Origin: Thermoanaerobacter pseudethanolicus ATCC 33223
GTDB taxonomy: Bacteria > Bacillota > Thermoanaerobacteria > Thermoanaerobacterales > Thermoanaerobacteraceae
Reading direction: 5' to 3'
Length of the DNA: 64,000 nucleotides
Assembly (NCBI RefSeq): GCF_000019085.1
Contig: NC_010321.1
Location: 1,186,501 to 1,250,500, forward strand
A program made the translations under genes and the position numbers. Numbering within the stretch: position 1 is the first letter of the stretch; the number at the start of each line of letters is the position of its first letter. The notes beneath the pieces were generated by a model that did no database searches, was not told the DNA's origin, and worked only from the letters and a program-made list of their open reading frames with translations. Positions 6,735-25,607 of the stretch are shown here, piece after piece.

Positions 6735-7568
6735 ATGGAATTATGGTTTACAGAAAATCAGGATGAAAATTTGAGATTTTCTTTGAAAGTTAAAGAAACA
6801 TTGGTGGTAGAAAAAACTCCTTATCAACATTTAGCAATACTCGATACATATCAATTTGGAAGAGTATTAACTTTAGATGGTATACTTCAAACCACTGAAA
6901 AAGATGAATTTGTATATCATGAGATGATAGTACATGTACCCCTCTTTACTCATAAAAATCCAAAAAGCGTATTAATTGTTGGAGGCGGAGATGGAGGCTC
7001 AGTAAGAGAGGTCTTAAAGCACCCTTCTGTAGAAAGAGTAGTTTTGGCAGAAATTGACGAGGCAGTAGTGAGAAATTCTAAAAAATATCTTCCTACAATA
7101 AGCCAGGCATTAGATGACCCAAGAGTAGAAATAATGATTGGAGATGGAATTAAATATGTTAATGAACACAAAAATGAATTTGATGTGGTAATAGTGGATT
7201 CTACTGACCCAATTGGGCCAGCTGTAGGTCTTTTTACTTCTGATTTTTATAAAGCCGTATATGAATGCTTGAAAGAAGATGGTATTATTGTGGCTCAGAC
7301 AGAATCACCTTTTATTTATGGAAAATTGATAAACAAACTCAGCAAAATGTTCAAAGAAATATATCCTATTACAAAAGCATATATAGCAACAATACCGACT
7401 TATCCAGGAAGTTTGTGGACTTTTACCATGGGTTCAAAAAAATATGACCCTGAAGAAGTGGACATAAATTCTATTCCAAGAATAGATACTAAATACTATA
7501 CACCTGAAATTCACAAAGCGGCCTTTGTACTGCCTAAATTTGTGAAGGATATTTTTGATGAGGTGTAA
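6735..7568 (+). CDS. speE: Spermidine synthase / aminopropyltransferase
   Basis: Transfers an aminopropyl group from decarboxylated S-adenosylmethionine to putrescine or agmatine. Motifs include [27 protein letters not shown], the nucleotide-binding loop [16 protein letters not shown] and the catalytic region [12 protein letters not shown]. The start is set at ATG 6735 (MELWFTE), seven bases after GGAGGTG at 6722-6728; a TTG further upstream lies inside the ribosome site. 277 aa, normal. The stop is adjacent to speB, whose ribosome site lies inside the last codons. Together with speB and speD (31 kb) this makes a complete polyamine route. Confidence 0.95.
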
Positions 7569-7569
7569 T

Positions 7570-8436: not shown

Positions 8437-8439
8437 AAA

Positions 8440-8466
8440 TTTTGAGCCTTTTGGCTCTTTTTTTAT
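8440..8466 (+). terminator. Terminator of speE-speB
   Basis: Stem GAGCC-TTTT-GGCTC followed by seven T, just after the speB stop codon. Confidence 0.7.
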
Positions 8467-8488
8467 TTTGTTTCTTTTGAAAAAATAG

Positions 8489-8494
8489 TATAAT
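8489..8494 (+). promoter_or_regulatory. -10 box before the carboxyltransferase gene
   Basis: A perfect TATAAT lies 22 bp before the ATG at 8516 and after the speB terminator. The -35 region (around 8467-8472) is poor, so the assignment is tentative. Confidence 0.35.
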
Positions 8495-8515
8495 ATATTA
8501 TGAGGAGGTATTAAT

Positions 8516-9913: not shown

Positions 9914-9941
9914 CAGGGAAAATTATTTCCCTGTTTTTTTG
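9912..9941 (+). terminator. Terminator of the carboxyltransferase gene
   Basis: Perfect 10-bp stem AACAGGGAAA / TTTCCCTGTT with an ATTA loop and a run of seven T. It starts within the stop codon. Confidence 0.88.
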
Positions 9942-9964
9942 TGTATATTTAAATTCCTCCTGTA

Positions 9965-9992
9965 ACATATATTTTTATCCTTCATAACATGT
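9965..9992 (+). promoter_or_regulatory. Possible sporulation-type promoter of the LysM gene
   Basis: AC at 9965-9966, a 16-bp spacer and CATAACAT at 9983-9990 resemble the late mother-cell sigma-K pattern (AC, 16 bp, CATAnnnTA), though the last A is G here. This fits a spore-coat type product but is only a pattern match. Confidence 0.3.
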
Positions 9993-10020
9993 AGTAGAAA
10001 GTTTAAAGGAGGGAAATAGG

Positions 10021-10449
10021 ATGACAATAGATGGATCTTATTATAATCCTAACTATCCTAAGTATCCTTACCATCATCCCTATTATCCACATCATCCTCA
10101 TCCGGGACATTGTAAGACTTTTTATACAGTGCAGCCAGGAGATACTATGTGGTCTATAGCGAATATGTTTGGAATAAGTCTTGACTGCTTAATAAGAGCT
10201 AATCCTCAGATATCGGATCCTAATTTGATATATCCAGGACAACAAATTTGCATACCTTTCTATTGTCCACCAGTATCTCCAGAAACCTGCAAAACAATAT
10301 ACACAGTAAAACCGGGAGATACCATGTGGTCTATAGCTAATATGTTTGGTGTAAGTCTTGATGCATTGATAAGAGCAAATCCACAAATACCAGATCCCAA
10401 TTTGATATACCCAGGACAACAAATATGTATACCTTCTGCGAATTGTTAA
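10021..10449 (+). CDS. Two-LysM protein with His/Tyr/Pro-rich N-terminus
   Basis: 142 aa. Residues 1-32 are rich in Tyr, Pro and His (repeats like YPYHHPYYPHH). Two near-identical LysM domains follow at about 37-80 and 94-138, each with the pattern Y-T-V-x-PGDTMWSIANMFG and ending NLIYPGQQICIP. LysM binds peptidoglycan or chitin-like glycans. There is no signal peptide, as in SafA and other spore morphogenetic proteins assembled from the mother cell, so a spore coat/cortex role is inferred. Strong ribosome site AAAGGAGG. The gene's last codons are one arm of a palindrome shared with the convergent neighbour. Confidence 0.85.
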   Translation: MTIDGSYYNPNYPKYPYHHPYYPHHPHPGHCKTFYTVQPGDTMWSIANMFGISLDCLIRANPQISDPNLIYPGQQICIPFYCPPVSPETCKTIYTVKPGDTMWSIANMFGVSLDALIRANPQIPDPNLIYPGQQICIPSANC

Positions 10450-10476
10450 GGCACCTTTTAAGGTGCCTTAACAATT
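10441..10476. terminator. Bidirectional terminator shared by convergent genes
   Basis: Perfect 17-bp arms AATTGTTAAGGCACCTT (10441-10457) and AAGGTGCCTTAACAATT (10460-10476) with a TT loop. It covers the final codons and stops of both the LysM gene and the minus-strand gene that ends at 10468. Confidence 0.85.
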
Positions 10477-11106
10477 AATGTGAAGATATATAGTATTAGG
10501 ATAATTGCTTGTATATTTTATAACTTTTACAGTCCCTGGTTGAATATTTTTTCCACATTTTAAGCATAGGTAATTTTTGTTTTCTTGCAAATAAGTGTAG
10601 CTTATTTCTACCTCTAATTTTCCGTATTTTTTCCAGCTATTCCACCCAGTTTTGCACAATTTGGCTCTGTTTTCATAATCGGCATATACCCATCTCAGCA
10701 ATCGATGAAAATGAAAAGGATATTTTGTGTATCTTAAAAACTTTTCTGGCAATCCTAAAGATAAAGCGTAATTTTCAAAAGAATTTTCTATTATATCCTG
10801 AAGAGGATTTAATATTTGTGTACTTTCCCAATTATACTCTTCTTGTTCTAACCATTTTCTAAAAGTGTCAAACATGTAACCTCTACAAACTTGTATTTTT
10901 TCAGTTTTACTTACTTTAAGTTTTTCTAAAAGTTTTTTCCCAATTTCACAGGCTTTTCTTAAATACAATTTATTTTTAAAGTTTTCTTCATTATAATATT
11001 CTATGGGAATTATATCATAGAAAAATTCTCCAGTTTCTACTCTCATAGCCCCAATACACGTTCCACCTACCAAACTTCCACTTCCCGCGTCGTCTATTTG
11101 TATCAC
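10468..11106 (-). CDS. Conserved-looking protein of unknown function with C-terminal zinc-ribbon-like motif
   Basis: 212 aa, GTG start preceded by AAGGAGTG with good spacing. The first residues (IQIDDAGSGSLVGGTCIGAMR) look like an RNase H-like or nucleotide-binding beta hairpin, with an early DD and a later IEYYNEE. The middle is rich in aromatic and basic residues. The C-terminus has CLKCGK...HINC, two cysteine pairs with CxxC spacing and a HxxC end, suggesting a metal site. I do not recognise the family. It is a single gene, divergent from surE and convergent with the LysM gene. Base composition matches its neighbours. Confidence 0.75.
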   Translation of the reverse strand: MIQIDDAGSGSLVGGTCIGAMRVETGEFFYDIIPIEYYNEENFKNKLYLRKACEIGKKLLEKLKVSKTEKIQVCRGYMFDTFRKWLEQEEYNWESTQILNPLQDIIENSFENYALSLGLPEKFLRYTKYPFHFHRLLRWVYADYENRAKLCKTGWNSWKKYGKLEVEISYTYLQENKNYLCLKCGKNIQPGTVKVIKYTSNYPNTIYLHINC

Positions 11107-11943: not shown

Positions 11944-12078
11944 ATATTTGTAACATTCTATATGATGCAAGAATTGTATCAAAAATATTCATGACATTTA
12001 TTATTCATTTTATGGAGGATTTTTTATTTTTATATAGAATATTATATATTGCAAATAAAATTTAATGAGGGTGATAGA

Positions 12079-12276
12079 TTGGTAAAAAATAAAGAGCTCG
12101 TAATAATAGAAAAATGGTGCAAAGGCTGCGGTATTTGTGTAGAATTTTGCCCTGTTAAAGTATTGGAACTAAAAAATGGTAAGGTTAGGCTGATAGATGC
12201 TGATGAATGCACTAAATGTGGCCTTTGCGAGCTCAGGTGTCCTGATTTTGCCATATATTTAGAGGTGAAAGAATGA
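12079..12276 (+). CDS. korD: 2-oxoacid:ferredoxin oxidoreductase delta (ferredoxin) subunit
   Basis: 65-aa bacterial ferredoxin with two 4Fe-4S motifs: CKGCGICVEFCP and CTKCGLCELRCP. It passes electrons from the oxidoreductase catalytic subunits to free ferredoxin. The start is TTG at 12079, eight bases after GAGGGTGAT; the ATA-rich codons before it lack a start with a ribosome site. The gene ends inside the start of korA (TGA/ATG overlap). A diverged copy of its first third lies at 18658-18757. Confidence 0.92.
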   Translation: MVKNKELVIIEKWCKGCGICVEFCPVKVLELKNGKVRLIDADECTKCGLCELRCPDFAIYLEVKE

Positions 12277-13412
12277 TGCCTACGGTATTGATGCAAGGAA
12301 ATGAAGCGGTAGTGGAAGGAGCTATAGCTGCTGGACTAAAATTTTATGCAGGATATCCAATAACTCCCTCTACTGAGATTGCTGAGTTTTGTGCCGAAAA
12401 GCTTCCTTTTGTAGGAGGGAAATTTATTCAAATGGAAGATGAAATCGCCAGCATGGCAGCAGTTATAGGAGCCTCCCTTACTGGATTAAAAGCAATGACT
12501 GCTACATCGGGTCCTGGGTTTTCTTTAAAGCAGGAAAACATAGGTTTTGCTGCTATGGTAGAAATTCCTTGCGTTATAGTGGATGTTCAGCGAATGGGTC
12601 CGAGCACAGGAATGCCTACTTCTCCTGCACAAGGGGATGTAATGCAATCCAGATGGGGAACTCATGGAGACCATCCTATAATTGTTTTATCACCTTCTTC
12701 TGTAAAAGAAGCCTATTATATTACTATTCAAGCTTTTAATCTTTCTGAAAAATACAGGACACCTGTAATTCTACTTATGGATGAAGTTATAGGTCATCTA
12801 AGAGAAGCAGTTAATTTAGATGAATATAAAGATATAGAAATTTTTGAACGACCTATGCCCCAAGATAAAGATAATTACTTACCTTATGAGGATATAGAAA
12901 ATGGAGTTGTCCCTTTAGTACCCTTTGGTAAAGGTTTTAGATTTCATGTAACAGGACTTGCTCACAACGAAAAAGGATTGCCTACAAATGACCCTAAAGT
13001 AACTGAAAAACTGATAAAAAGATTGATGGAGAAAATTGAAAACAATAAAAAAGACATACTGATGTTTGAAGAAAAAGATACTGAAGAAGGAGATGTACTT
13101 CTCATATCCTTTGGTTCTTCTGCCAGAGCTTGTGAAGCGGCAATGGAAGAACTTAAAAAAGAAGGGATAAAAATTGGACTTTTCAGACCTATAACCATAT
13201 GGCCTTTCCCTGATGAAAAATTGAGGGAAATATATCCTAGATTTAAGAAAGTGTTTGTAGTTGAAATGAATACAGGGCAACTTTACTATGAAGTAGATAG
13301 AATAATCAAAGGTAATACCTATGTAGGGAAAATTAACAAATTTAATGGAGAGTTTTTCACTCCTTTTGAGATTGTAGAGAAAATAAAGGAGAGTTTTAAA
13401 AATGGCATCTGA
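12273..13412 (+). CDS. korA: 2-oxoglutarate:ferredoxin oxidoreductase alpha subunit
   Basis: 379-aa subunit with the pyrimidine-binding domain of the pyruvate:ferredoxin oxidoreductase superfamily. It opens with GNEAVVEGAIAAGLKFYAGYPITPSTEI, a signature of 2-oxoacid oxidoreductase alpha subunits, then TSGPGFSLKQENIGFA and GPSTGMPTSPAQGD. Oxidatively decarboxylates 2-oxoglutarate to succinyl-CoA with the other three subunits. Two adjacent ATGs (12273 and 12276) could start it. The 2-oxoglutarate specificity is inferred from subunit order and the adjacent gdhA; a branched-chain (Vor) role is possible. Confidence 0.9.
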   Translation: MMPTVLMQGNEAVVEGAIAAGLKFYAGYPITPSTEIAEFCAEKLPFVGGKFIQMEDEIASMAAVIGASLTGLKAMTATSGPGFSLKQENIGFAAMVEIPCVIVDVQRMGPSTGMPTSPAQGDVMQSRWGTHGDHPIIVLSPSSVKEAYYITIQAFNLSEKYRTPVILLMDEVIGHLREAVNLDEYKDIEIFERPMPQDKDNYLPYEDIENGVVPLVPFGKGFRFHVTGLAHNEKGLPTNDPKVTEKLIKRLMEKIENNKKDILMFEEKDTEEGDVLLISFGSSARACEAAMEELKKEGIKIGLFRPITIWPFPDEKLREIYPRFKKVFVVEMNTGQLYYEVDRIIKGNTYVGKINKFNGEFFTPFEIVEKIKESFKNGI

Positions 13413-14226
13413 ATTAGTAGAAAAATACATTAGGAAGGAAACGTTACCAAATATTTGGTGTCCAGGTTGCAGCAATGGAATAGTAACGGCAGCTATTGTA
13501 AGAGCAATTGACAACTTAGGACTTGACCAAGACAAGGTATGTATTGTATCTGGAATTGGTTGTTCTTCAAGGGCATCAGGATACTTGGATTTTAATACTT
13601 TGCATACTACCCATGGAAGAGCTATTGCTTTTGCAACAGGTATTAAATTTGCTAATCCTGAGCTTACAGTAATAGTTATTACTGGAGATGGAGATAATGC
13701 GGCTATTGGAGGTAATCACTTTATTCATGCTTGCAGAAGAAATATAGACTTAACTGTAGTGATGTACAACAACCATATTTATGGAATGACAGGAGGACAA
13801 TATTCTCCAACGACTCCACGGTTTGACAGAGCTACTACTGCACCTTACGGAAATATTGATAGGTATTTTGATATTTGCAAATTGGCCATTGGAGCAGGTG
13901 CGACTTATGTAGCTAGGGGTACTGCTTACCATGTTCAACAATTGACAAAACTAATTGAAAGAGGAATTTCTCATAAAGGTTTTTCCTTCATTGAAGCTTT
14001 GAGTATATGCCCTACTTACTATGGAAGAAAAAATAAAAAAGGAACACCTGCAGATATGCTAAAGTGGTTAAAAGACCATGCAGTAGACATAAAACAAGCT
14101 AGTAAAATGGACCCTGAAGAGCTTCATGACAAATTTATTATTGGAGAGCTTTTAAATATTGATGAGCCTGAATTTGTAGAAGAATATCAAAAAATGTTAA
14201 ATAATTTGAAGGTGAATTACAAATGA
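13402..14226 (+). CDS. korB: 2-oxoglutarate:ferredoxin oxidoreductase beta subunit
   Basis: 274-aa thiamine-diphosphate-binding subunit. The ThDP/Mg motif is clear: GDGDNAAIGGNHFIHACRRN (GDG...N), preceded by WCPGCSNGI with cluster-type cysteines and followed by YNNHIYGMTGGQYSPTTP. It overlaps korA by 11 bp and korC by 4 bp, so the subunits are translationally coupled. Confidence 0.92.
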   Translation: MASELVEKYIRKETLPNIWCPGCSNGIVTAAIVRAIDNLGLDQDKVCIVSGIGCSSRASGYLDFNTLHTTHGRAIAFATGIKFANPELTVIVITGDGDNAAIGGNHFIHACRRNIDLTVVMYNNHIYGMTGGQYSPTTPRFDRATTAPYGNIDRYFDICKLAIGAGATYVARGTAYHVQQLTKLIERGISHKGFSFIEALSICPTYYGRKNKKGTPADMLKWLKDHAVDIKQASKMDPEELHDKFIIGELLNIDEPEFVEEYQKMLNNLKVNYK

Positions 14227-14786
14227 GTTCAATAGAAATAAGATTAGGTGGTTCAGGAGGGCAAGGTTTAATCCTTGCAGGAATAATTTTGGCGGAAGCT
14301 GCAATATTGGATGGTAAAAATAGTGTTCAAAGTCAGTCCTATGGTCCTGAGGCAAGAGGAGGATCCAGCAAAGCAGAAGTAATAATAAGTAATGAATATA
14401 TAACGTATCCTAAGGTATTAAAACCAGACATACTACTTACTCTTGCGTCTTCTGCCTATTTATGCTATAAAAATGACATGAAAGAAAATGGGATAATTAT
14501 AATAGACGAATCAATAATTCCTAATGATGAAGATACCCAAAAAGTTGTCCGACTTCCCATAATAAAAACTGCGCAAGAGATAATTGGAAGAGCTTTTGTG
14601 GCGAATATAATATCTTTAGGTGTAATAGCAGAGTTAACTAATGTGGTAACAAAAGAATCTTTAGAAAGAGCTGTTTTAAATAGAGTACCTCCAGCCACAG
14701 AAGAGATTAACAAAAGAGCATTGAGAGAAGGCTATAATCTTGTAAAAATGAGGGGTAGTGAAATATGGCAAAAACAGATGATTTGA
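14223..14786 (+). CDS. korC: 2-oxoglutarate:ferredoxin oxidoreductase gamma subunit
   Basis: 187-aa subunit with the family start IRLGGSGGQGLILAG (residues 5-19) and SYGPEARGGSSKAEVIIS, typical of the CoA-side gamma domain. Completes the D-A-B-C four-subunit enzyme. ATGA overlap with korB; its last 22 bp overlap the regulator gene. Confidence 0.92.
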   Translation: MSSIEIRLGGSGGQGLILAGIILAEAAILDGKNSVQSQSYGPEARGGSSKAEVIISNEYITYPKVLKPDILLTLASSAYLCYKNDMKENGIIIIDESIIPNDEDTQKVVRLPIIKTAQEIIGRAFVANIISLGVIAELTNVVTKESLERAVLNRVPPATEEINKRALREGYNLVKMRGSEIWQKQMI

Positions 14787-15628
14787 TAAAAAGGATACAA
14801 GATAATTATACAAAATTAAGCAAAAGCCAAAAGATAATAGCAGAGTACATTATAAATCATTATGATAAGGCAGCTTTTATGACAGCTGCAAAATTGGGAG
14901 CCAGCATAAATATAAGTGAATCAACTGTTGTAAGATTTGCTAATACTTTAGGCTATAATGGATATCCAGAACTTCAAAATGCACTGCAAGAGCTTATAAA
15001 AAATAAACTTACAACAGTCCAAAGGTTAGAAATGACAGAAGAGACAGATGAAATTGCTATATTGAATAATGTACTAAAAGCCGACATAGAAAACATAAAA
15101 GAGACCATAAATGAAATAAATAAGGATGACTTTAGAAGAGTCGTTTCAGATATCATCAATGCTACAAAAATTTATATAATAGGTTCCAGAAGTTCTATTG
15201 TCATTGCAGAATATTTGGGATTTTATTTAAATTTAATACGGGAAAATGTGTCAGTCGTTAAAGCGGGCGTATCAGATGTTTTCGAGCAAATTCTCAGAGT
15301 TAGTGAAAATGATTTAGTGATAGGAATTGGTTTTCCGAGATACTCAAAAAGAACATTAGATGTGCTGAAATATGCAAAATCTCAGAATGCAAAAATCGTT
15401 ACAATAACAGATAGCTTGATTTCTCCTCTTACCTCTGTTGCTGATGAGATATTAATTGCGAAAAGCAACATGGCTTCTTTTGTGGATTCATTAGTGGCAC
15501 CTTTAAGTCTTGTCAATGCTCTTGTGGTAGCTGTGGGCCTTAGAGAAAAGGAAAAGATAGCCGATACTTTTGAAAAATTAGAGAGTATTTGGGATGAATA
15601 TGGGGTATATTTCTCAAAACCAAATTAA
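14765..15628 (+). CDS. RpiR/MurR-family transcriptional regulator
   Basis: 287 aa. Residues about 1-75 form the RpiR winged helix (LSKSQKIIAEYIINHYDKAA, then INISESTVVRFANTLGYNGYPELQ). Residues about 125-260 form a SIS domain (YIIGSRSSIVIAEYLGFYLN, VIGIGFPRYSKRTLDV, TDSLISPL) that normally binds a phosphosugar. Being translated from within the end of korC makes it part of the kor operon, which is odd because RpiR proteins usually control sugar or MurNAc genes. It may control this operon and gdhA; the inverted repeat before gdhA is a candidate site. Confidence 0.88.
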   Translation: MAKTDDLIKRIQDNYTKLSKSQKIIAEYIINHYDKAAFMTAAKLGASINISESTVVRFANTLGYNGYPELQNALQELIKNKLTTVQRLEMTEETDEIAILNNVLKADIENIKETINEINKDDFRRVVSDIINATKIYIIGSRSSIVIAEYLGFYLNLIRENVSVVKAGVSDVFEQILRVSENDLVIGIGFPRYSKRTLDVLKYAKSQNAKIVTITDSLISPLTSVADEILIAKSNMASFVDSLVAPLSLVNALVVAVGLREKEKIADTFEKLESIWDEYGVYFSKPN

Positions 15629-15632
15629 TTAT

Positions 15633-15705
15633 AAAATTTTGAAGGGTTATTAAAAATTTTGTAGAATATATAACATAGAAATCGATTCATTTGCTTCAAA
15701 ATTTT
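15633..15705. promoter_or_regulatory. 12-bp inverted repeat in gdhA leader
   Basis: AAAATTTTGAAG (15633-15644) and CTTCAAAATTTT (15694-15705) are perfect inverted copies 49 bp apart. They flank a central AAATCGATT dyad and an AT-rich -10-like TATAAC. The second arm ends just before the AGGAGG of gdhA. Could be an operator pair or a leader hairpin. Confidence 0.4.
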
Positions 15706-15725
15706 AAAATTAGGAGGATAATAAA

Positions 15726-16976
15726 ATGTCAAAAGAGTCATTAAATCCTTTGATTATTGCGCAAAAGCAGATTAAAAATGCTTGTGATTTGCTGGGGGTA
15801 GAAGAATTTGTTTATGAACTTTTAAAGGAACCTATGCGAGTATTAGAAGTTTCTATTCCTGTACAGATGGATGATGGTACAGTAAAAGTCTTTAAAGGTT
15901 ATAGGTCTCAACACAATGACGCATTAGGACCCACAAAAGGAGGAATAAGATTTCATCCTGACGTTACATTAGATGAGGTAAAAGCCTTATCCATGTGGAT
16001 GACATTTAAATGTGGGGTAGTAGGACTTCCTTACGGAGGAGCAAAAGGTGGAGTAGTGGTAAATCCAAAAGAATTGTCTAACGATGAGTTACAGAGGTTG
16101 AGCAGGGGCTATATAAGAGCAATAACGAGCATAATAGGTCCTAATAAAGATATACCTGCACCAGATGTAAATACTAACATGCAAATTATGGCTTGGATGG
16201 TAGATGAGTATAACAAAATTGTAGGCTACAATAGCCCTGCGGTCATTACAGGAAAACCTTTGATATATGGTGGTTCTAAGGGAAGAACTGCTGCAACTGG
16301 ATATGGAGTTGCATTGATGGCACGGGAGGCTGTAAAACGTTTACAGATGGATTTCAAAAATTGTACATCAGCTGTACAGGGCTTTGGAAATGTTGGAAGT
16401 TACACTGCTTTAAACCTTCAAAGATTAGGCGCTAAAATTGTAGCAGTAAGTGATGTGTATGGAGGTATATACAATAAAGATGGAATTGATGTTGAAAAAT
16501 TACTAGAGCATGTAAATAAGACGGGAACAGTGTGCAATTTTGAGGGAACAACCAGTATAACAAATGAAGAGCTTTTAACAATGGAGGTAGACATTTTAGC
16601 TTTAGCAGCTTTAGAAAATCAGATAACTTCTGCAAATGCGCCAGATGTAAAGGCGAAAATAATTTGCGAAGGAGCAAATGGTCCTACAACTCCTGAAGCA
16701 GATAAGATTTTAGCAGAAAGAGGTGTGTTTGTAGTTCCGGATATTTTAGCTAATTCAGGAGGAGTAATAGTTTCATATTTTGAATGGGTACAAAATCTCA
16801 TGAATTATTATTGGACAGAAAAAGAAGTAGAAGAAAGACAGGAGATTATGATGGTAAATGCTTTTAACGCTATATATGAATTAGCACAGCAGTACAAAGT
16901 TGATATGAGGACAGCAGCTTACATGATATCGATTAAACGGGTTTATGAAGCTATGAAAATTAGAGGTTGGTTATAA
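15726..16976 (+). CDS. gdhA: Glutamate dehydrogenase
   Basis: Interconverts glutamate and 2-oxoglutarate plus ammonia with NAD(P)H. Active-site motifs GPTKGGIRFHP (K71) and LPYGGAKGGV (K107) are intact, with the coenzyme fold AVQGFGNVGSYTA further on. 416 aa is typical of the hexameric bacterial/archaeal enzyme. AGGAGG ribosome site. The last 185 bp, including the stop, are repeated at 24000-24184. This intact copy is not followed by a clear terminator; the truncated copy is. Confidence 0.96.
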   Translation: MSKESLNPLIIAQKQIKNACDLLGVEEFVYELLKEPMRVLEVSIPVQMDDGTVKVFKGYRSQHNDALGPTKGGIRFHPDVTLDEVKALSMWMTFKCGVVGLPYGGAKGGVVVNPKELSNDELQRLSRGYIRAITSIIGPNKDIPAPDVNTNMQIMAWMVDEYNKIVGYNSPAVITGKPLIYGGSKGRTAATGYGVALMAREAVKRLQMDFKNCTSAVQGFGNVGSYTALNLQRLGAKIVAVSDVYGGIYNKDGIDVEKLLEHVNKTGTVCNFEGTTSITNEELLTMEVDILALAALENQITSANAPDVKAKIICEGANGPTTPEADKILAERGVFVVPDILANSGGVIVSYFEWVQNLMNYYWTEKEVEERQEIMMVNAFNAIYELAQQYKVDMRTAAYMISIKRVYEAMKIRGWL

Positions 16977-16979
16977 AGG
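16795..16979 (+). repeat. Direct repeat, gdhA 3' end, copy 1
   Basis: 185 bp, codon 357 of gdhA to 3 bp past its stop codon, repeated at 24000-24184 in the same orientation with three mismatches (T/C, G/A and G/T; the last changes Arg to Ser). Marks the left edge of the accessory island. Confidence 0.97.
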
Positions 16980-17377
16980 GTTAGTACAAAATTAGCGTAA
17001 ACATTATTCTTATAAACTTTACTGCAATTGCAATTACTGTTTGTTTTTTCTTTAATGGGCTCTCTTGTTTATGTAATTATAGGGGGCCTTAAATTTTTTG
17101 TTAGTGTTTATTAACTTGTCTTTGGATTTCTTAATGAGTTTCTCTGCAAAGATCCTTAAACACTTCTTTAAATTCAAGAAAGTACTCATCTAAAATAGCA
17201 ATTAGCTTTACTAGACAATTGATAGACAATTTAAGTCCTCTGTGTTATTATTAAAATTAGAGTGTTTATTACCATAGAGCTTAATCTATCATCTTTCCCG
17301 TTGCTAATATTTCTATTTTGCAAAAAGTCCAGTAGAAACTTTTAACAAACTAAAGAATGAAATATAGGAGGCTACAG
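16980..17377 (-). pseudogene. Decayed, mostly non-coding stretch with a possible transposase scrap
   Basis: About 400 bp with no intact gene. On the minus strand around 17140-17240 one frame reads LVKLIAILDEYFLEFKEVFK, resembling the central part of IS110-family transposases (LDxYFPEF), and a shifted frame continues with Lys-rich coding-like sequence. Stops and shifts are frequent, so it is at best a relic. Confidence 0.3.
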
Positions 17378-18646
17378 ATGAAGTTAATAGCAATATTAAT
17401 ATTTATAGCGACATATATTCTACTTCTTGTTTTACCTAAATACAGAACATATATTTCATTATTTTCAGCTTTATTATTTGTATTAATTGGAATACTTCCC
17501 TTTCAAAAAGCTCTATCTTACATTGATTGGAATGTTATATTGATGATTGGCGGAACTATGGGAATAGTAAACCTGTTTATCGAATCAAAGATGCCTGCTT
17601 TGATGGCTGATGTTATAATAGACAAAGTCGCAAGTATAAAATGGGCCATAATATCTCTTGCAGCCTTTGCTGGCATAGTTTCAGCTTTTATCGATAATGT
17701 AGCTACTGTTTTAATAATAGCACCCGTTGCTATGGATATTGCAAAGAAGCTTAATATTTCACCAGTCTATATGATTATTTCAATAGCTATTTCATCAAAC
17801 TTACAAGGTGCTGCAACCTTAGTTGGAGATACTACCTCGCTTTTATTAGGTGGTTATGCTAAAATGGATTTTATTGACTTTTTCTTTTTTAAAGGTAGGA
17901 TGGGATTGTTTTGGATAGTTCAAATTGGGGCAGTAGCTACAATACCTATTTTATTGCTCTTTTTTAGAGAATATAATCAACCCATTCATCTTGAGGAAAA
18001 GCAAGAGGTTGAGGACTATTTCCCATCATATCTTTTGATTTTGATGGTAGCATTATTAATAATTGCTTCCTTTATTCCTAATAAACCTGAAATTACAAAT
18101 GGTTTAATATGCACAACATTGCTTTTAATAGGTATAATTAAGGAGGTCGTCATAAGCAAAAATAAACATGCTTTAAATAATACTCTTTTACAAATTGATT
18201 ATGAAACAATCCTTTTGCTGATGGGGCTTTTCGTAGTAATAGGTGGAATTTCTGAGGTTGGAGTTATAAACGATATTAGTAAAATATTTTCAAGATTTGG
18301 AAAGGGCAACTTATTTTTAATCTATACTATTATAGTTTGGTTCTCAGTTTTTGTATCTGCCTTCATTGATAATATACCATATACTGCTACGATGCTTCCT
18401 GTTGTATCAAAAATTGCTCAAGAAATGGGAATACAGCCTTATCTTCTTTATTTTGGCCTACTTGTTGGGGCAACATTGGGAGGTAATATAACTCCAATAG
18501 GTGCATCTGCTAATATAACTGGATTAGGAATTCTAAGAAAAGAAGGATATGAAGTTAAGGCAAAGGACTTTATGAAGTTAAGTATTCCATTTACTTTAAC
18601 AGCAGTTATAACTGGTTATATTTTGACTTGGATTATTTGGAGGTAA
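17378..18646 (+). CDS. ArsB/NhaD (ion transporter superfamily) permease
   Basis: 422-aa integral membrane carrier with about 11 hydrophobic segments in two repeated halves. Each half carries the same re-entrant motif: SAFIDNVATVL near residue 105 and SAFIDNIPYTA near 334. A GNITPIGASAN segment near the end is typical of the ArsB/NhaD/SLC13-like superfamily. Start set at ATG 17378, after GGAGG; the earlier ATG would lie before that site. The substrate may be a dicarboxylate, another organic anion or Na+/H+. Its place beside glutamate and 5-oxoproline genes makes an organic acid attractive, but this is inference. Confidence 0.82.
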   Translation: MKLIAILIFIATYILLLVLPKYRTYISLFSALLFVLIGILPFQKALSYIDWNVILMIGGTMGIVNLFIESKMPALMADVIIDKVASIKWAIISLAAFAGIVSAFIDNVATVLIIAPVAMDIAKKLNISPVYMIISIAISSNLQGAATLVGDTTSLLLGGYAKMDFIDFFFFKGRMGLFWIVQIGAVATIPILLLFFREYNQPIHLEEKQEVEDYFPSYLLILMVALLIIASFIPNKPEITNGLICTTLLLIGIIKEVVISKNKHALNNTLLQIDYETILLLMGLFVVIGGISEVGVINDISKIFSRFGKGNLFLIYTIIVWFSVFVSAFIDNIPYTATMLPVVSKIAQEMGIQPYLLYFGLLVGATLGGNITPIGASANITGLGILRKEGYEVKAKDFMKLSIPFTLTAVITGYILTWIIWR

Positions 18647-18657
18647 TGTAAAGGGAA

Positions 18658-18757
18658 TAAGGGTGATAGATTGGTAAAAAACAAAAAACTGGTAATAATA
18701 GAGGAATGGTGCAAAGGCTGCGGCATTTGTGTGGTATTTTGTCCTGTTAAAGTATTC
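18658..18757 (+). pseudogene. korD: Truncated korD copy (5' part only)
   Basis: 100 bp matching korD from its ribosome site (AAGGGTGAT) through the TTG start to the end of the first cluster motif (CKGCGICVVFCP), with about 12 mismatches in 100. The copy stops at AAAGTATTC, where IS-like sequence begins. Too diverged to be as young as the gdhA repeat. Confidence 0.88.
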
Positions 18758-18869
18758 GTTTTTGAATTTAATTGTCTATATAAAATTCGACAAAAGTGGA
18801 TGAATTCCTTTGAAAATATATAGCAGAACCCCTTAATTTGTGAGGATTTTGGAGTTCTGCAAAGACCTA
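18758..18869 (-). mobile_element. Decayed terminal end of an IS4-type element
   Basis: The reverse complement matches the left end of the intact IS at 50736, including AGGTCTTTGCAGAA, the CTGCTATATATTTTCAAAGG segment and the stretch TTCATCCACTTTTGTCGAAT. The outer terminus is at 18869 (ACCTA), 32 bp before the Nramp-like start. Only about 110 bp survive; the transposase and the other end are missing. The terminal hairpin GCAGAAC / GTTCTGC (18823-18829, 18854-18860) is kept with compensating changes. Confidence 0.85.
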
Positions 18870-18901
18870 AATAAAAAAATGCTAAGGAGGTTATTTATGG
18901 T

Positions 18902-20140
18902 ATGGAAGATCGAAAAACTTTGTGGCAAAAAATAGCCAGCATAGGACCGGGTGCCATTGTCGCTGCAGCATTTATAGGCCCGGGTACTGTAACCACCTGC
19001 ACCCTGGCGGGCGTCAATTACAAATACACTCTGCTGTGGGCCTTACTGTTTTCAACCATAGCGACTATAATACTTCAGGAAATGTCGGCTCGCATCGGGA
19101 TAGTAGCCAATAAGGGATTAGGAAGCACCATCAGAGAAACCTTTGAGGAAAACCCAACGGCCAAAATTGTCGTAATAGCTCTTGTGATCGCAGCCCTGGG
19201 AATTGGGAACTCCGCCTTCCAGAGCGGCAATATAAGTGGCGCCTCTATGGGATTGCAGGTGATTCTTGGAGGTTCAAAACAAGTCTGGGTAGTCCTCATC
19301 GCGCTGATAGCAGGATTCCTCCTCTGGACCAGCAGTTACAAGTTAATCGAAAAGGTATTGGTCGGTATAGTTATAATGATGAGCATTGTCTTCGTCGCCA
19401 CAGCCGTAGTGATCTCTCCCAACTGGGGTGAGGTTTTTAGGGGAATCTTTGTTCCAACGATTCCACCAGGCGCCCTCATAGTAACCCTCGGACTCATAGG
19501 GACAACCGTTGTGCCGTATAACCTGTACCTTCATTCATCCATTACAGCCGAACGCTGGGGTAGTTACAAAGACAAGAGAGAAGCCATATCGGAATCAAGA
19601 GCCGATACCATGCTGTCTATAGGTCTGGGCGGAATTATATCCATGGCCATAATCATTACTTCCTCTTCCATGTTCAGCACCGGCGTACAAATTAAAACCG
19701 CCGCCGACATGGCGAGCCAGCTGGAGCCCCTGCTGGGGCCATGGGCAAAATGGTTTTTCGCAATAGGCCTGTTCTGCGCCGGGATTTCTTCGGCCATAAC
19801 GGCACCCATGGCCGCCGCCTATGCTATAACTGGCGTCCTCGGGCTGAAAAGCGACCTAAAGGAAAGGCATTTTCGTATAATATGGCTGCTGGTATTACTA
19901 ATTGGTGCCACGGTGGCCTTTTTGGGCGCCAACCCAGTACAGGTAATAGTTTTTGCCCAGGCGGTAAACGGCGTACTGCTTCCCATCTCGGCAATACTCT
20001 TGCTTGTGGTAATAAACAACCAAAAGATCATGAAAGAATTTGCAAACACCACCGTATCCAATATACTCGGGTATTTCGTCGTAGTCGTAACCGTAATTCT
20101 CGGGTTGAGGATGTTCCTGACAGCCCTAAAGATAATATAA
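18902..20140 (+). CDS. Nramp-fold transporter without canonical metal ligands (YcsG-like)
   Basis: 412-aa protein of about 11 membrane segments with the Nramp (LeuT) fold. In TM1 the metal-binding DPGN is replaced by GPGT (residues 26-29), and in TM6 the MPHN region reads VPYN (204-207) before LYLHSS. True Mn/Fe carriers need the Asp, Asn and Met, so a non-metal or different substrate is likely. B. subtilis has a similar gene, ycsG, inside its ycsF-ycsI-kipI-kipA (5-oxoprolinase) cluster, which matches the pxp genes that follow here. Start ATG 18902 lies 11 bp after AAGGAGG. GC is about half (32 of 60 at 19441-19500), against about 30% in pxpA; it lies between two IS remnants, so it was probably acquired separately. 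Confidence 0.85.
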   Translation: MEDRKTLWQKIASIGPGAIVAAAFIGPGTVTTCTLAGVNYKYTLLWALLFSTIATIILQEMSARIGIVANKGLGSTIRETFEENPTAKIVVIALVIAALGIGNSAFQSGNISGASMGLQVILGGSKQVWVVLIALIAGFLLWTSSYKLIEKVLVGIVIMMSIVFVATAVVISPNWGEVFRGIFVPTIPPGALIVTLGLIGTTVVPYNLYLHSSITAERWGSYKDKREAISESRADTMLSIGLGGIISMAIIITSSSMFSTGVQIKTAADMASQLEPLLGPWAKWFFAIGLFCAGISSAITAPMAAAYAITGVLGLKSDLKERHFRIIWLLVLLIGATVAFLGANPVQVIVFAQAVNGVLLPISAILLLVVINNQKIMKEFANTTVSNILGYFVVVVTVILGLRMFLTALKII

Positions 20141-20158
20141 TTGGTGTTAGTATAATAT

Positions 20159-20282
20159 TGTAGACACTATAACTTGAACAAGGTAAAATAGAATTACAAA
20201 GAGAGGAAGTGTCTACAAGATGTCAAAGTGACAAAGAAAATATAATGAAGAGTTCAAACACACTATAGTAGAGCTGTATAAC
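20159..20282 (+). mobile_element. Remnant of an IS3-type element, left end
   Basis: Starts TGTAGACACT and has an inverted partner AGTGTCTACA at 20208-20217. ATG at 20220 then opens MSK, a TGA, and QRKYNEEFKHTIVELYN, the usual start of an IS3-family OrfA with an in-frame stop at codon 4. Homology ends near 20282. Confidence 0.65.
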
Positions 20283-20436
20283 TTTATGTTTTATCAACCA
20301 CTACCTTCAACACCAAGAGGAGGGAATCCTTCTTTTTTTTTCTCAAATCTTTTTGTATCAAGTATTGTAAGGTTTGATATCCCCCAAAATTAGGGGTTTA
20401 TCTGACATAACTCTAAGTAAAAAAGGAGGTATGTTT
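20283..20436. other. Non-coding gap before pxpA
   Basis: About 150 bp. The minus strand has a short open reading LDTKRFEKKKEGFPPLGVEG of unknown origin, with no start. Just before pxpA, CCCCCAAAATTAGGGG could form a small hairpin (20383-20398). Confidence 0.4.
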
Positions 20437-21207
20437 ATGAAATATCGAGTGGACATAAATAGTGACATTGGTGAAAGTTTTGGGGTGTATAAAATAGGTA
20501 TGGATGAGGAAATAGTAAAATACATTTCATCAGCAAATATTGCTTGTGGATTTCATGCAGGTGATCCTATTGTAATGGCAAATACTGTTGAAAGATGTGC
20601 TAAAAATAAAGTGGCGGTAGGAGCTCATCCTGGATTTCCTGATCTATTGGGATTTGGAAGAAGAAATATAGATGTATCACCCACAGATGTAAAAAATTAT
20701 ATCATATATCAAATTGGAGCCTTACAAGCTTTTGCTATAAGTAACGGTATAAAATTGCAACATGTTAAAGCTCATGGCGCCTTGTACAACATGGCTGCAA
20801 CAGATGAAAAACTTGCTATAGCAATTGCCGAAGCAATAGCTTCAGTAAATGAAAATCTCATATGCGTTGGGATGGCCAATACAGCCATGCAGATGGCAGC
20901 TGAAAAAGTAGGGTTGAGATTTGCTTGTGAGGTTTTTGCTGATAGAAACATAAATCCTGATGGTACTTTAGTTTCTAGAAAGCTTCCAAATGCTATTATA
21001 CACGATGAAGAATTGGCTTGCAGAAGAGTGCTTCGAATGATTAAAGAGGGAGTTTGTGAGGCTATAGATGGTAGTCTAGTAAAAGTGAAAGTTGATACTA
21101 TATGTGTTCATGGTGATAATCCCCAGGCTGTAGAATTTGCTAAAAGAATAAAAAAGACTTTAGAAGAAAATGGAGTTGAAATAATACCCATGGGTGAGTT
21201 TTTATAA
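20437..21207 (+). CDS. pxpA: 5-oxoprolinase subunit A (LamB/YcsF)
   Basis: Part of the ATP-dependent 5-oxoprolinase that opens 5-oxoproline (pyroglutamate) to glutamate. Family motifs: [12 protein letters not shown] (residues 4-15), [43 protein letters not shown] and VCVHGD-like [10 protein letters not shown] at the end. Start set at ATG 20437 ([10 protein letters not shown]), seven bases after GGAGG; earlier in-frame codons precede that site. 256 aa is normal. pxpB begins 18 bp later. Confidence 0.95.
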
Positions 21208-21225
21208 TACAGGGAGTTGATTATA

Positions 21226-21957
21226 ATGTATGAAAAACCTAAAATTCTCTTATGCGGGGACAAGGCTGTTATAGTTGAATTTGGAAATGAAATAAGTGAG
21301 GAATGCAATAAAAAAGTAGTAAATCTTTATAGGACGTTAGAAAAAGAGAAGAGTGCAGGAATTATTTCTATGATTCCAACTTATAGATCTTTGCTTATTA
21401 AATATGATCCTTTAAAAATTGCTTACGATGAACTATTAAAACTAATTGAATCAAGCAATAAAGATAAGAATGAAAGTACAGAAGAATTTAGGTCTAAAAT
21501 ATATGAAATTCCGGTAGCTTATGGAGGAGAATTTGGCCCAGATTTAGATTTTGTAGCTAAATACCATAATATGACTGCTGAAGAGATAATAAGTATTCAT
21601 ACACAACCTTTTTATAGAATTTATATGGTTGGTTTCACAATGGGATTTGCGTATTTAGGAGGTATGTCTGAAAAAATTGCTACTCCACGATTAGAAAATC
21701 CGAGAACTGAGATAAAGGCAGGGTCAGTAGGCATTGCAGGTAACCAAACAGGTATCTATCCGCTTTCTAGTCCTGGTGGCTGGAGGATAATAGGGAGGAC
21801 TCCTGTAAGATTATATGATCCAGAAAGAGAGAGGCCTATTCTTTTTGAAGCAGGTAATTACATAAAGTTTGTGCCGATAACAGGAGAGGAATTTTACAAG
21901 ATTGAAAAAGAAATAGAAATGAAAAGATATCAAATTAAAATATACGATTATGAGTAA
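21226..21957 (+). CDS. pxpB: 5-oxoprolinase subunit B (KipI/Ahs1 domain)
   Basis: 243-aa subunit of 5-oxoprolinase; the B. subtilis relative was first named KipI, a sporulation-kinase inhibitor. The C-terminal half carries the Ahs1 signature: FYMVGFTMGFAYL-type (IYMVGFTMGFAYLGG), PRLENPRTEIKAGSVGIAGNQTGIYPLSSPGGW and GRTP. Start ATG 21226 after GGGAG. It works as a heteromer with PxpC. Confidence 0.95.
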   Translation: MYEKPKILLCGDKAVIVEFGNEISEECNKKVVNLYRTLEKEKSAGIISMIPTYRSLLIKYDPLKIAYDELLKLIESSNKDKNESTEEFRSKIYEIPVAYGGEFGPDLDFVAKYHNMTAEEIISIHTQPFYRIYMVGFTMGFAYLGGMSEKIATPRLENPRTEIKAGSVGIAGNQTGIYPLSSPGGWRIIGRTPVRLYDPERERPILFEAGNYIKFVPITGEEFYKIEKEIEMKRYQIKIYDYE

Positions 21958-22023
21958 CGAAACTTTCTCTAAGAACAGTAAAAAAACCAAAAATAGTAGA
22001 AACTTTGCAAGGTAGGTGAAAAA

Positions 22024-23028
22024 ATGGAGTGCTTTAGAGTATTAAGTCAGGGTCTTTTTACAACTATTCAAGATATAGGTAGATTTGGATATGAAAGTCA
22101 AGGGATACCTACATCGGGAGCAATGGATGAATTTGCTTTAAGAATTGCTAATATATTGGTGGGAAACGATGAAAATGCTCCATGTCTGGAAATAACATTG
22201 ATGGGACCTACTCTTGAGGTCCTAAGTGATGTTATGATCGCAGTAACCGGGGCTGAGATTCAACCTCTAGTGAATGGTTTTCCACGACCCTGTTGGTCTT
22301 CATTTCCTGTACAGAAGGGCGATATTGTATCCTTTGGACCAATAAAGTCGGGGTTCCGAGCATATCTTGCAGTAGCTGGAGGATTTAAAGGAAACTTGAT
22401 AATGAATAGTGTTTCTACTTACACTAGAGGGAAGTTAGGGGGTATAAAAGGAAGACGTATTGAAAAGGATGATATCCTCATAAGTGGGGTTTCTCAGTCA
22501 GGGTTAGATGCAAGGAAGGTCCGAGATGAATATATACCTTCTTATTCTAGTGAAGAAGAAATAAGAATAATATTGGGACCTCAAGATGACTATTTTGATG
22601 AAGAAGCTATAAAAGTTTTTTTGAGTTCTACGTACGTAATTACAAAAGATTCTGATAGAATGGGTTACAGGCTTGAAGGACCTGAAATTAAAGCTAAGGA
22701 AAGGCATGATATAATTACGGATGGGCTTTTACCGGGGGCTATTCAAATACCTGGGAATGGAAAACCAATTATAATATTAAAAGATGCCCAGACTACAGGC
22801 GGCTATACAAAAATAGCGACAGTTATTTCAGTTGATTTGTCAAAGCTTGCTCAATTAAAACCAGGAGACAAAGTAAGGTTTAGAGCTGTTGACCTTTTTG
22901 AGGCGCATAAAATTCTTGTAGAAACTGAAAACAAAATCAAGGAGATTAAGGAAACTTTGAAAGTCTTAAAATATTTTAAGGTAAAAGTAAATGATAGATA
23001 TTATGATGTTGGTGTTGAACCCCTTTGA
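22024..23028 (+). CDS. pxpC: 5-oxoprolinase subunit C (KipA/Ahs2 domain)
   Basis: 334-aa partner of PxpB, related to the biotin-dependent carboxyltransferase (Ahs2) domain of urea amidolyase but without biotin attachment. Signature near the start: GLFTTIQDIGRFGYESQGIPTSGAMD, and later DSDRMGYRLEGP and DGLLPGAIQIPGNGKPI. AGGTGA ribosome site. Third gene of the pxpABC operon, 66 bp after pxpB. Confidence 0.95.
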   Translation: MECFRVLSQGLFTTIQDIGRFGYESQGIPTSGAMDEFALRIANILVGNDENAPCLEITLMGPTLEVLSDVMIAVTGAEIQPLVNGFPRPCWSSFPVQKGDIVSFGPIKSGFRAYLAVAGGFKGNLIMNSVSTYTRGKLGGIKGRRIEKDDILISGVSQSGLDARKVRDEYIPSYSSEEEIRIILGPQDDYFDEEAIKVFLSSTYVITKDSDRMGYRLEGPEIKAKERHDIITDGLLPGAIQIPGNGKPIIILKDAQTTGGYTKIATVISVDLSKLAQLKPGDKVRFRAVDLFEAHKILVETENKIKEIKETLKVLKYFKVKVNDRYYDVGVEPL

Positions 23029-23117
23029 GCTATGTTTTGATACGCAAACTAACAGTATATCAAAATATTGATTAACCAAAAAATTACATAAATAAAAAAT
23101 GTTAAGGAGATGATCTT

Positions 23118-23915
23118 ATGCCGGAAAAAATAAATTATGAAAATCTCAAACCTTCGGAAGCAAGACAGCTGATTAGAGAAGGTGTTTTAACAGGGCCTAC
23201 TGCTGGTATCGCTTTGGGATATACCCAGGCTAATCTTGTAATGCTTCCCAAAGAACTTGCTTATGATTTTCTTCTATTTGCTTTTAGAAATCCAAAACCT
23301 TGTCCTATTCTCGATGTAACTGACGTAGGAAGTCCAGAACCAAAAGGAGTTGCAAAAGGAGCGGATCTGCGAACCGATATTCCCAAATACAGAATTTATA
23401 AAAAAGGTGTACTAGAAGCAGAAGTTAATGATATAAGAGATTACTGGCGCGATGATTTCGTAGCTTTTCTTTTGGGCTGTAGCTTTACGTTTGAAAAAGC
23501 TCTTCTAGAGAATGATATTCCTGTAAGACATATTGAAGAAGGTAAAAATGTCCCTATGTATATTACCAATATAGAAACAAGGCCAGCAGGAATTTTTCAT
23601 GGCTATATGGTGGTCAGTATGAGACCAATTCCTCAGAACCTTGTAGTAAGAGCTGTTCAGGTAACTTCGAGATTCCCATCAGTTCACGGCGCTCCTGTTC
23701 ATATAGGGGATCCTAAAGCTATAGGTATAGCTTCTCTTGATAAGCCGGATTTTGGCGATCCTGTTGAGATAAAAGCAGGAGAAGTACCTGTTTTTTGGGC
23801 ATGTGGAGTAACGCCACAAGCGGTGGCAATGAAATCAAAACCTGAAATTATGATAACTCATTCACCGGGACATATGTTTATTACAGATTTAAAAGATGAA
23901 ATGTTAGCATGTTAA
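23118..23915 (+). CDS. DUF1445 / YcsI-type putative hydro-lyase (D-glutamate cyclase-like)
   Basis: 265-aa protein of the DUF1445 family, the bacterial counterpart of the domain in mitochondrial D-glutamate cyclase, which makes 5-oxo-D-proline. Motifs: [11 protein letters not shown] near residue 12, [24 protein letters not shown] near 115, [15 protein letters not shown] and [18 protein letters not shown] ribosome site. It is the last gene of the pxp set, as ycsI sits with ycsF and kipI-kipA in B. subtilis. Activity on D-glutamate or 5-oxoproline is a family-level guess. Confidence 0.88.
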
Positions 23916-23999
23916 AGAAAATTGCCTTTTAAATTGAGTTTTTCATTATCCTAGATAAAAAGCTAGAGTATAACATAAATAAAACGAGCCAGATTCCGC

Positions 24000-24184
24000 A
24001 TCTCATGAATTATTACTGGACAGAAAAAGAAGTAGAAGAAAGACAGGAAATTATGATGGTAAATGCTTTTAACGCTATATATGAATTAGCACAGCAGTAC
24101 AAAGTTGATATGAGGACAGCAGCTTACATGATATCGATTAAACGGGTTTATGAAGCTATGAAAATTAGTGGTTGGTTATAAAGG
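24000..24184 (+). repeat. Direct repeat, gdhA 3' end, copy 2 (truncated gdhA)
   Basis: Second copy of the last 185 bp of gdhA, coding MNYYWTEKEVEERQ... to SGWL and the stop at 24179-24181. Only about 60 codons are present and no start with a ribosome site, so it is a pseudogene fragment. The hairpin right after it is the natural terminator missing after the intact gdhA. Confidence 0.97.
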
Positions 24185-24206
24185 CCTTCATTGAAGGTCT
24201 TTTTGT
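24181..24206 (+). terminator. Probable original gdhA terminator
   Basis: AAGGCCTTCA / TGAAGGTCTT stem (one G-U) with a single-base loop, then TTTTTG, directly after the truncated gdhA stop. Confidence 0.75.
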
Positions 24207-24251
24207 TATATGGTAAAATATTATAAAAAGCTTATTAGAGGAGGCTTCTTT

Positions 24252-24959
24252 ATGGTAAGGAGTCTTCTAACTGTAGATTGGGATTATTTTATACCTTCTA
24301 AAAAAGAGTGGTTTTTCTCTTATATAGAAAATGATAAAAATTTGACTCAACTGTGGTATAAGAGATATATAAAAGGGAAATTAGAGGGAGAAGATTTGGA
24401 AAAGACTATAAAAGTAGGTAAAGTCATAAAAGGCTTCTGGGATAAAATAAAGACACAGTTTAAGTTTGATAAAAACATTAAAATTTTTGTCTCTGAATCC
24501 CATAAAGTTGCCTATTATTTGGCAAAAAATTTTGAGTGTTCTGAAGTAGTTTCTTTTGATGCCCATTCTGATTTAGGATATGGTGGACTACCTTCACTGG
24601 ATTTTGAATTAAATTGCGCTAATTGGCTAGGTAAGCTTTTAAAAGAAAATATAGTAAAAAGAGCCAAAATTGTATATAGTCCTTACACCTTTGAAAAGCC
24701 TTTAGATTTTGAGGATTTTAACAACCTTTACAACATACAGTATTATAAATCGGTAGAAGAATTACCAAAAGAGAATTTGATAGGGGTTATACACATTTGT
24801 AGGTCGGGTACTTGGACACCTCCTTGGCTGGATGAAAGATTTGAAAAATTTATAAATGAGTTAGGCTTGCCTTTTAAGAAAATTGCAATAAAAGAGAGAA
24901 AGTGGGAGGTGTCAAAGCTTTCTTACGCAGATCAAATCTTTTACCTTAATTTCGCATAA
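24252..24959 (+). CDS. UPF0489-like protein with arginase-type metal motif
   Basis: 235 aa. Near the middle VVSFDAHSDLGYGG resembles the DAHxD metal-binding loop of the arginase/deacetylase fold, and an earlier TVDWDYFIP plus a late ADQIFYLNF fit proteins of the UPF0489 type. Start ATG 24252 (MVRSLLTVDWD) six bases after GAGGAGG. Function unknown; a metal-dependent hydrolase is inferred. It is 18 bp upstream of the phosphatase gene and the first gene after the island, so gdhA and this gene were probably neighbours before the insertion. Confidence 0.72.
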   Translation: MVRSLLTVDWDYFIPSKKEWFFSYIENDKNLTQLWYKRYIKGKLEGEDLEKTIKVGKVIKGFWDKIKTQFKFDKNIKIFVSESHKVAYYLAKNFECSEVVSFDAHSDLGYGGLPSLDFELNCANWLGKLLKENIVKRAKIVYSPYTFEKPLDFEDFNNLYNIQYYKSVEELPKENLIGVIHICRSGTWTPPWLDERFEKFINELGLPFKKIAIKERKWEVSKLSYADQIFYLNFA

Positions 24960-24977
24960 AACTTAAGGAGGAATTGT

Positions 24978-25607
24978 ATGACTACACGACTATATATAGC
25001 ACGTCACGGGCAATCAGAGTGGAATTTACACAATAAAATGCAAGGTGTGCAGGATATTGATTTGACACCTACAGGTTTAAAACAGGCTGAACTACTGGCA
25101 AGTCGATTAAAAAATGAGAAAATAGATTGTATATATTCAAGTGATTTAAAAAGAGCGTATATAACTGCACAAATAATTGCAAAAGAATTTGGATTAGAAG
25201 TTCAAAAAATTCCTGAGTTTAGAGAAATGTCCTTTGGTATATGGGAAGGGCTTACAGCGGAAGAAATCAATGAATTGTATAAAGAAATATATACATTATG
25301 GAAAATGAATCCTGTTAAAGCTAATATAGAAAAAGGAGAGACTTTAGAAGAAGTTCAAAAGAGAATGCTAAAAAAGACATTGGAGATAGTTAAAGAGAAT
25401 GATGGCAAAAGTGTATTGATTGTTTCTCATGGGACTTCTATAAAAGCACTGATTTTGGGGCTTTTAGGAATTGACTTAAGTTTTTATCCTAGATTTAGAC
25501 TTGATAATACTTCTCTTAATATAGTAGATGTTAAGGAAGATGGTAAAACTGTTCTGGTGCTATTTAACGATACTTGTCATTTAAGGAGAGATGAAAAAAT
25601 AATATGA
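24978..25607 (+). CDS. Histidine phosphatase (phosphoglycerate mutase-like)
   Basis: 209 aa. N-terminal phosphohistidine loop IARHGQSEWN (H10) and the second catalytic His in VSHGTSIKAL near residue 154, with SSDLKRAYITAQ and EFREMSFGIWEG between. Small members of this family include GpmB-, CobC- and phosphoserine phosphatase-like enzymes, so the substrate is unknown. AAGGAGG ribosome site. Overlaps the next gene by 4 bp. Confidence 0.88.
   Translation: MTTRLYIARHGQSEWNLHNKMQGVQDIDLTPTGLKQAELLASRLKNEKIDCIYSSDLKRAYITAQIIAKEFGLEVQKIPEFREMSFGIWEGLTAEEINELYKEIYTLWKMNPVKANIEKGETLEEVQKRMLKKTLEIVKENDGKSVLIVSHGTSIKALILGLLGIDLSFYPRFRLDNTSLNIVDVKEDGKTVLVLFNDTCHLRRDEKII

Follow-up and report, generated by a model that had tools for sequence, protein, structure and literature searches.

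The window, a stretch of 64,000 nucleotides from Thermoanaerobacter pseudethanolicus ATCC 33223, encodes at 18902-20140 on the forward strand (exact open reading frame, 412 aa) an Nramp-fold (PF01566) transporter without metal ligands. We consider it probable that this protein imports 5-oxoproline (pyroglutamate) by means of an Nramp/LeuT fold and represents a second subfamily of such importers. Import of pyroglutamate rather than metal appeared most likely because the metal-holding residues are lost and two unrelated pyroglutamate enzymes adjoin transporters of this type in bacteria and archaea alike; we infer the uptake from this linkage and from the genetics of PxpT. The kind has already been described, only just, in PxpT, and the window-type subfamily is a new variant branch beside it. 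In a search of the openly accessible literature, no earlier description of the window-type subfamily was found.

Proposed substrate site of the window protein

The PF01566 Nramp profile matched the window protein over the whole domain with 336.8 bits (cut-off 29.8), and the AF2 model of the protein had a pLDDT of 92.8. When this model was searched with Foldseek, Nramps were ranked first and APC amino-acid transporters second. The fold was like that of the MntH/SLC11 proteins DraNramp and BfraNramp (TM-score ~0.8 by query length; ~26-32% identity), but their DPGN, MPH and TM3 Glu are all absent from the window protein. The APC transporters ApcT and AdiC, the next-best structural matches (E ~1e-6), have the LeuT fold in common with it and carry substrates similar in kind to the one proposed here; however, they are only 12-17% identical and belong to another family. 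Profile alignments with NSS/APC transporters gave weak matches in a different register and did not support an equation of GPGT with their GxG carboxylate motif.

In TM1, which reads FIGPGTVTT from residue 24, the motif GPGT (residues 26-29; 18977-18988, forward strand) was found instead of DPGN, and in TM6, which reads GTTVVPYN (residues 200-207), VPYN (residues 204-207; 19511-19522, forward strand) stood in place of MPHN. Both replacements had been proposed in the initial annotation and were borne out; by alignment with MntH, the conserved Glu of TM3 was lost too, its position being taken by Asn110 (19229-19231, forward strand). The protein thus lacked all three sequence features of canonical MntH, namely DPGN, TM6 MPH and TM3 Glu, and the TM1, TM3 and TM6 sites together retained zero acidic or sulfur ligands. 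The absence of Asp, Asn and Met, as first described, therefore stood, with the correction that the Asn ligand of Nramps is that of the TM1 DPGN and not the Asn seen in VPYN.

It was clear from 35 window-type relatives that the replacement residues are kept: G26, T29 and Y206 were present in 100% and N110 in 97%, whereas MntH proteins had D, N, H and Glu at these positions in 100%. Such conservation argues for a maintained, different site and not for decay. When 159 distinct PF01566 proteins were compared, a set gathered partly by motif (GTTVVPYN or AFIGxGT) so that apparent conservation is inflated, the window type showed GPGT, V[PGT]YN and TM3 Asn (Asp in two), MntH showed DPGN, MPHx (MSHN in one) and TM3 Glu, and NRMT mostly showed DxGG and [AT]P[WY]M with a mostly acidic TM3 residue. 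The same window-type signature was obtained from a phylum sample collected by whole protein and not by motif, with G-T-G-T in one member. The host genome (2.36 Mb) contains two more PF01566 genes, and since DPGN and MPHN are intact in both, the substitutions in the window protein are neither lineage-wide nor an alignment effect.

An importer of Mn or a similar divalent metal, working through non-canonical ligands and supplying the oxoprolinase with metal, was weighed against these data and judged unlikely. The NCBIfam model NF037982, which the window protein matched with 115.8 bits (cut-off 50), would name it a divalent metal transporter. Against this, neither an acidic nor a sulfur ligand is left at its metal site, and exchange of the TM3 Glu for Ala abolished transport in BfraNramp (PMC12873925). 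Even the NRMT Mg transporters (EleNRMT), which are likewise Nramp-related with an altered ion site, keep the TM1 Asp (DxGG) and mostly the TM3 acid, whereas the window type has neither; the window protein did not show the NRMT features (DxxG in TM1, a TxxA/T-type TM6) and fell on a separate tree branch. The host, moreover, already has its two canonical MntH genes. An Rfam scan of window positions 12000-25000 gave zero matches near the transporter gene, so no Mn riboswitch was detected there.

Other ligand-less PF01566 proteins were also seen. One group in Bacilli (L128, L134, L135, L137) has GPGS in TM1 and S[IV]VG or TVVG in TM6, and neither pxp nor Hyu genes were found nearby in the loci checked. 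A lone long-branch protein (L177, 9233-10840; gene also in L129) has IGPGTVTT in TM1 and PPNT in TM6, and a D-glutamate cyclase-like fragment (43 aa, 58%) lies just 5′ of its gene in L177.

Linkage with pxp genes and exchange of the partner enzyme

The 5-oxoprolinase setting described in the initial annotation was confirmed. Downstream of the transporter gene and on the same strand lie pxpA for 5-oxoprolinase subunit A (LamB/YcsF; 20437-21207, with an ATG at 20437 after a ribosome-binding site and a start at 20374 in the open reading frame list), pxpB for subunit B (21217-21957), a gene for a PxpC-type carboxyltransferase-domain subunit (22024-23028) and one for a D-glutamate cyclase or putative hydro-lyase of the YcsI family (23118-23915). 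Upstream, also on the forward strand, is a glutamate dehydrogenase gene (15726-16976), a plausible next step once 5-oxoproline has been converted to glutamate, together with the genes of three subunits of a 2-oxoacid (2-oxoglutarate type) ferredoxin oxidoreductase. Glutamate dehydrogenase was also found near relatives in loci L083, L116, L198 and L199. Between the transporter gene and pxpA there is an insertion-sequence-like remnant (20161-20284, forward strand; five genome copies, 79-100%), which is outside the system, and a terminator-like site; co-transcription with pxpA in the host genome is therefore uncertain. The CitMHS/DASS-like transporter gene directly upstream (17357-18646) was rejected as a member of the system, being present in 0 of 80 relative loci. 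At about 18671-18830, just 5′ of the transporter gene, we observed an orphan fragment, EWCKGCGICVVFCPVKVF, which resembles a 4Fe-4S ferredoxin.

At least 586 window-type relatives were confirmed in one scan, and the linkage was surveyed in 80 relatives from GTDB genomes of Bacillota, Bacteroidota, Pseudomonadota, haloarchaea, Actinomycetota and others. In 61 of them pxpA was located within 10 kb of the transporter gene (same strand in 60; median gap 30 bp), whereas it was near none of 40 other Nramp loci, comprising 36 MntH/NRMT and four ligand-less genes of other types; canonical members were thus not near pxp, and a distant HyuA/HyuB pair was nearby in one of the 40. The initial annotation had suggested that the association of pxp genes with a ligand-less Nramp is conserved and had named a wider survey without such a link as the finding that would speak against it; these counts exclude that outcome. 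In motif-blind samples with the starting genomes left out, pxp adjacency was seen for 6 of 11 window-type genes versus 0 of 40 (Fisher p = 2.6e-5, a value that is only indicative because related genomes are not independent).

PxpA was encoded elsewhere in 12 of the 14 genomes in which the window-type gene stands apart from pxp. As a point against the proposal, some members are without pxp linkage, namely those of Alteromonadales and those of the staphylococcus-sized genomes L198 and L199. In L198 (locus 7021-10797) and L199 a glutamate dehydrogenase gene and an arginase-family gene are followed by a divergent window-type gene, PxpA again being encoded elsewhere in the genome. One relative adjoins a gamma-glutamyltranspeptidase gene in convergent orientation.

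The 19 relatives without a nearby pxpA were examined for other partners. In all eight haloarchaeal loci of this set HyuA-HyuB lay directly 3′ of the transporter gene, with a gap of 19-101 bp by alignment, and the same order was found on annotated plasmids of Haloferax, Haloarcula, Halorussus, Haladaptatus and Halocatena; Natrononativus was the exception, its transporter gene not being followed by HyuA-HyuB. In two Bacteroidota loci (L035 and L036) a fused 1252-aa oxoprolinase-family (Hyu-A/B) protein was encoded 23-25 bp downstream of the transporter. PxpABC and these Hyu/OXP partner enzymes share no Pfam family, and PxpABC has been described as being without similarity to the ATP-dependent carboxylase group (PMC8453981); their common trait is the ring opening of a cyclic amide. 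In a quick tree with SH-aLRT support only, the Hyu- and OXP-linked transporters nested among the pxp-linked ones. The strongest evidence comes from these relatives with Hyu/OXP partners and no pxp gene nearby. With regard to the substrate, 5-oxoproline had been named with a perhaps in the initial annotation, and its standing as the likeliest candidate is strengthened by this swap to unrelated enzymes. PxpA and HyuAB do not strictly exclude each other, since four of the eight Hyu-linked haloarchaea also encoded PxpA elsewhere. In several of the haloarchaeal loci (L114, L116, L118, L211-L213, L215) a CopG-type ribbon-helix-helix gene, likely a regulator, is present just 5′ of the transporter gene, and an Asp/Glu racemase-family gene often comes after HyuB.

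It is quite unlikely, in our view, that instead of L-5-oxoproline the protein imports another amide of this kind, cyclic or acidic (hydantoin, an N-carbamoyl compound, D-5-oxoproline or glutamine). HyuA/HyuB are related to hydantoinases, caprolactamase and 5-oxoprolinases, and their substrates may be hydantoins or other lactams; a gene of the racemase family (Amdase or Asp/Glu racemase) follows HyuB in several haloarchaea, and D-glutamate cyclase accompanies the pxp genes in the window. Nevertheless, the commonest partner, PxpABC, is a 5-oxoprolinase, the partner in L035 and L036 is fused as oxoprolinases are (PMC8453981), and glutamate dehydrogenase is nearby in several loci. The metal reading bears on the linkage as well: the active site of the CapB type contains a divalent metal, PxpA has been described as probably metal dependent (PMC8453981), and a metal supplier could give the same linkage because both kinds of enzyme may use a divalent metal. 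We still favour 5-oxoproline because no acidic or sulfur ligand is left, two canonical MntH proteins are encoded in the same genome and the linkage outlasts replacement of the enzyme.

The related YcsG/PxpT/MumT subfamily

The YcsG-type search seed was taken by us as a presumed representative, a lead only; the matches themselves are the evidence. This search recovered a subfamily separate from that of the window gene. The likeness to B. subtilis ycsG drawn in the initial annotation did not hold in this respect, as the window gene lies outside the YcsG subfamily, which is also linked to pxp yet separate: the two types were 23-28% identical and formed separate groups in the tree, and the YcsG model PDB 9a52 was only 23% identical in Foldseek, so that orthology with ycsG was rejected. 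The YcsG type is alike in its PF01566 fold, its lack of metal ligands and the residues Gly26, Asn110, Tyr206 and Asn356, four sites that differ in MntH; it is unlike the window type in having GPGF in TM1 and GGYI in TM6 against GPGT and V[PG]YN (full signature SAIGPGF, GNI and GGTVGGYI). A profile-profile alignment of both types gave E = 2e-25, and a tree uniting them was not rejected (p-AU 0.71).

YcsG-type genes were found beside pxp genes on plasmid records of Bacillus badius, Moraxella, Shinella, Lactiplantibacillus and Klebsiella, and near 12 of another 40 PxpA loci surveyed in the phylum of the window, two of the 12 being partial; the Ilyobacter gene was not beside pxp genes. The order in Bacillus badius was pxpA-NRAMP-hydro-lyase, and pxpA-ycsG is reported likewise for B. 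subtilis. No Hyu/OXP partner of the YcsG type was seen in the loci examined. In A. baumannii (NZ_CP064203.1, L309, 4116-11573) a LysR gene was followed by NRAMP-PxpA-hydro-lyase-PxpBC-biotin carboxylase, in which the NRAMP is of the YcsG type, the hydro-lyase is a D-Glu cyclase/hydro-lyase and PxpB-PxpC are fused; this 3.97-Mb record is filed among PLSDB plasmids and looks like a chromosome. The gene order fits the published mumR-mumTLUHC order, and because of this gene content the 'urea carboxylase' mum operon of A. baumannii resembles an operon for 5-oxoprolinase. As judged from gene order, the seed and the identity between PxpT and YcsG, which is given as 50% in the PxpT report (PMC13274462), MumT, PxpT and B. 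subtilis YcsG would all belong to the YcsG type.

The phenotypes published for this subfamily point in two directions. Overexpression of YcsG in B. subtilis raised cell Mn, MntR bound the ycsG promoter and the Mn-importer report also rests on a failed triple mutant (PMC10448178), and deletion of mumT in A. baumannii lowered cell Mn by ICP-MS and was complemented (PMC5050338); the passages on YcsG, MumT and PxpT do not discuss the missing metal ligands. Measured metal transport had been named at the outset as evidence against a non-metal substrate, and it has been claimed for YcsG and MumT. These Mn claims favour a metal importer to some extent; since both proteins appear to lie in the other, also ligand-less subfamily, the claims neither refute uptake of 5-oxoproline nor can be ignored. 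On the other side, PxpT was specifically required by C. glutamicum for growth on 5-oxoproline, with complementation (PMC13274462).

The same growth defect on external 5-oxoproline fits import and bears on another role behind the linkage, in which the protein would export 5-oxoproline or glutamate or act as a sensor. Transport direction is not evident from sequence, and 5-oxoproline is stated in the same report to arise spontaneously in cells (PMC13274462), but to pair an exporter with a catabolic enzyme would be futile, and we regard this role as very improbable.

Proposed route of 5-oxoproline and meaning for the family

For an importer of 5-oxoproline, the substrate would sit between TM1 and TM6 where these helices are broken, close to Gly-Pro-Gly-Thr of TM1, Asn110 of TM3, Tyr206 of TM6 and Asn356 of TM10. 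Backbone amides, together with side chains of Asn, Tyr and Thr, would hold its lactam and carboxylate, whereas the metal of a canonical Nramp is held by Asp, Asn, Met and Glu. The comparison of register with APC transporters lent this arrangement no support. Inside the cell, PxpABC with ATP would open the ring to give glutamate, glutamate dehydrogenase would convert glutamate to 2-oxoglutarate and D-glutamate cyclase may handle the D-form.

A joint reading of all these proteins is possible, although we hold it tentatively and would not call it probable. The ligand-less PF01566 proteins (window type, YcsG type and perhaps GPGS type) would form an organic-acid/lactam branch, split from the MntH and NRMT side by one site change; the published effects of YcsG and MumT on Mn would be indirect, and the mum operon would serve uptake and hydrolysis of 5-oxoproline. 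The HyuAB-linked haloarchaeal members offer a clean test case for the substrate, as the enzyme that accompanies them has no relation to PxpABC.

Metal transport is what textbooks illustrate with the Nramp family, and window-type proteins are entered in databases as 'Nramp family divalent metal transporter'. Should the proposal be true, two PF01566 subfamilies carry a small organic acid and many annotations are misleading, and the dispute between Mn (YcsG/MumT) and 5-oxoproline (PxpT) becomes testable. One family would then transport both a metal and an amino-acid derivative.
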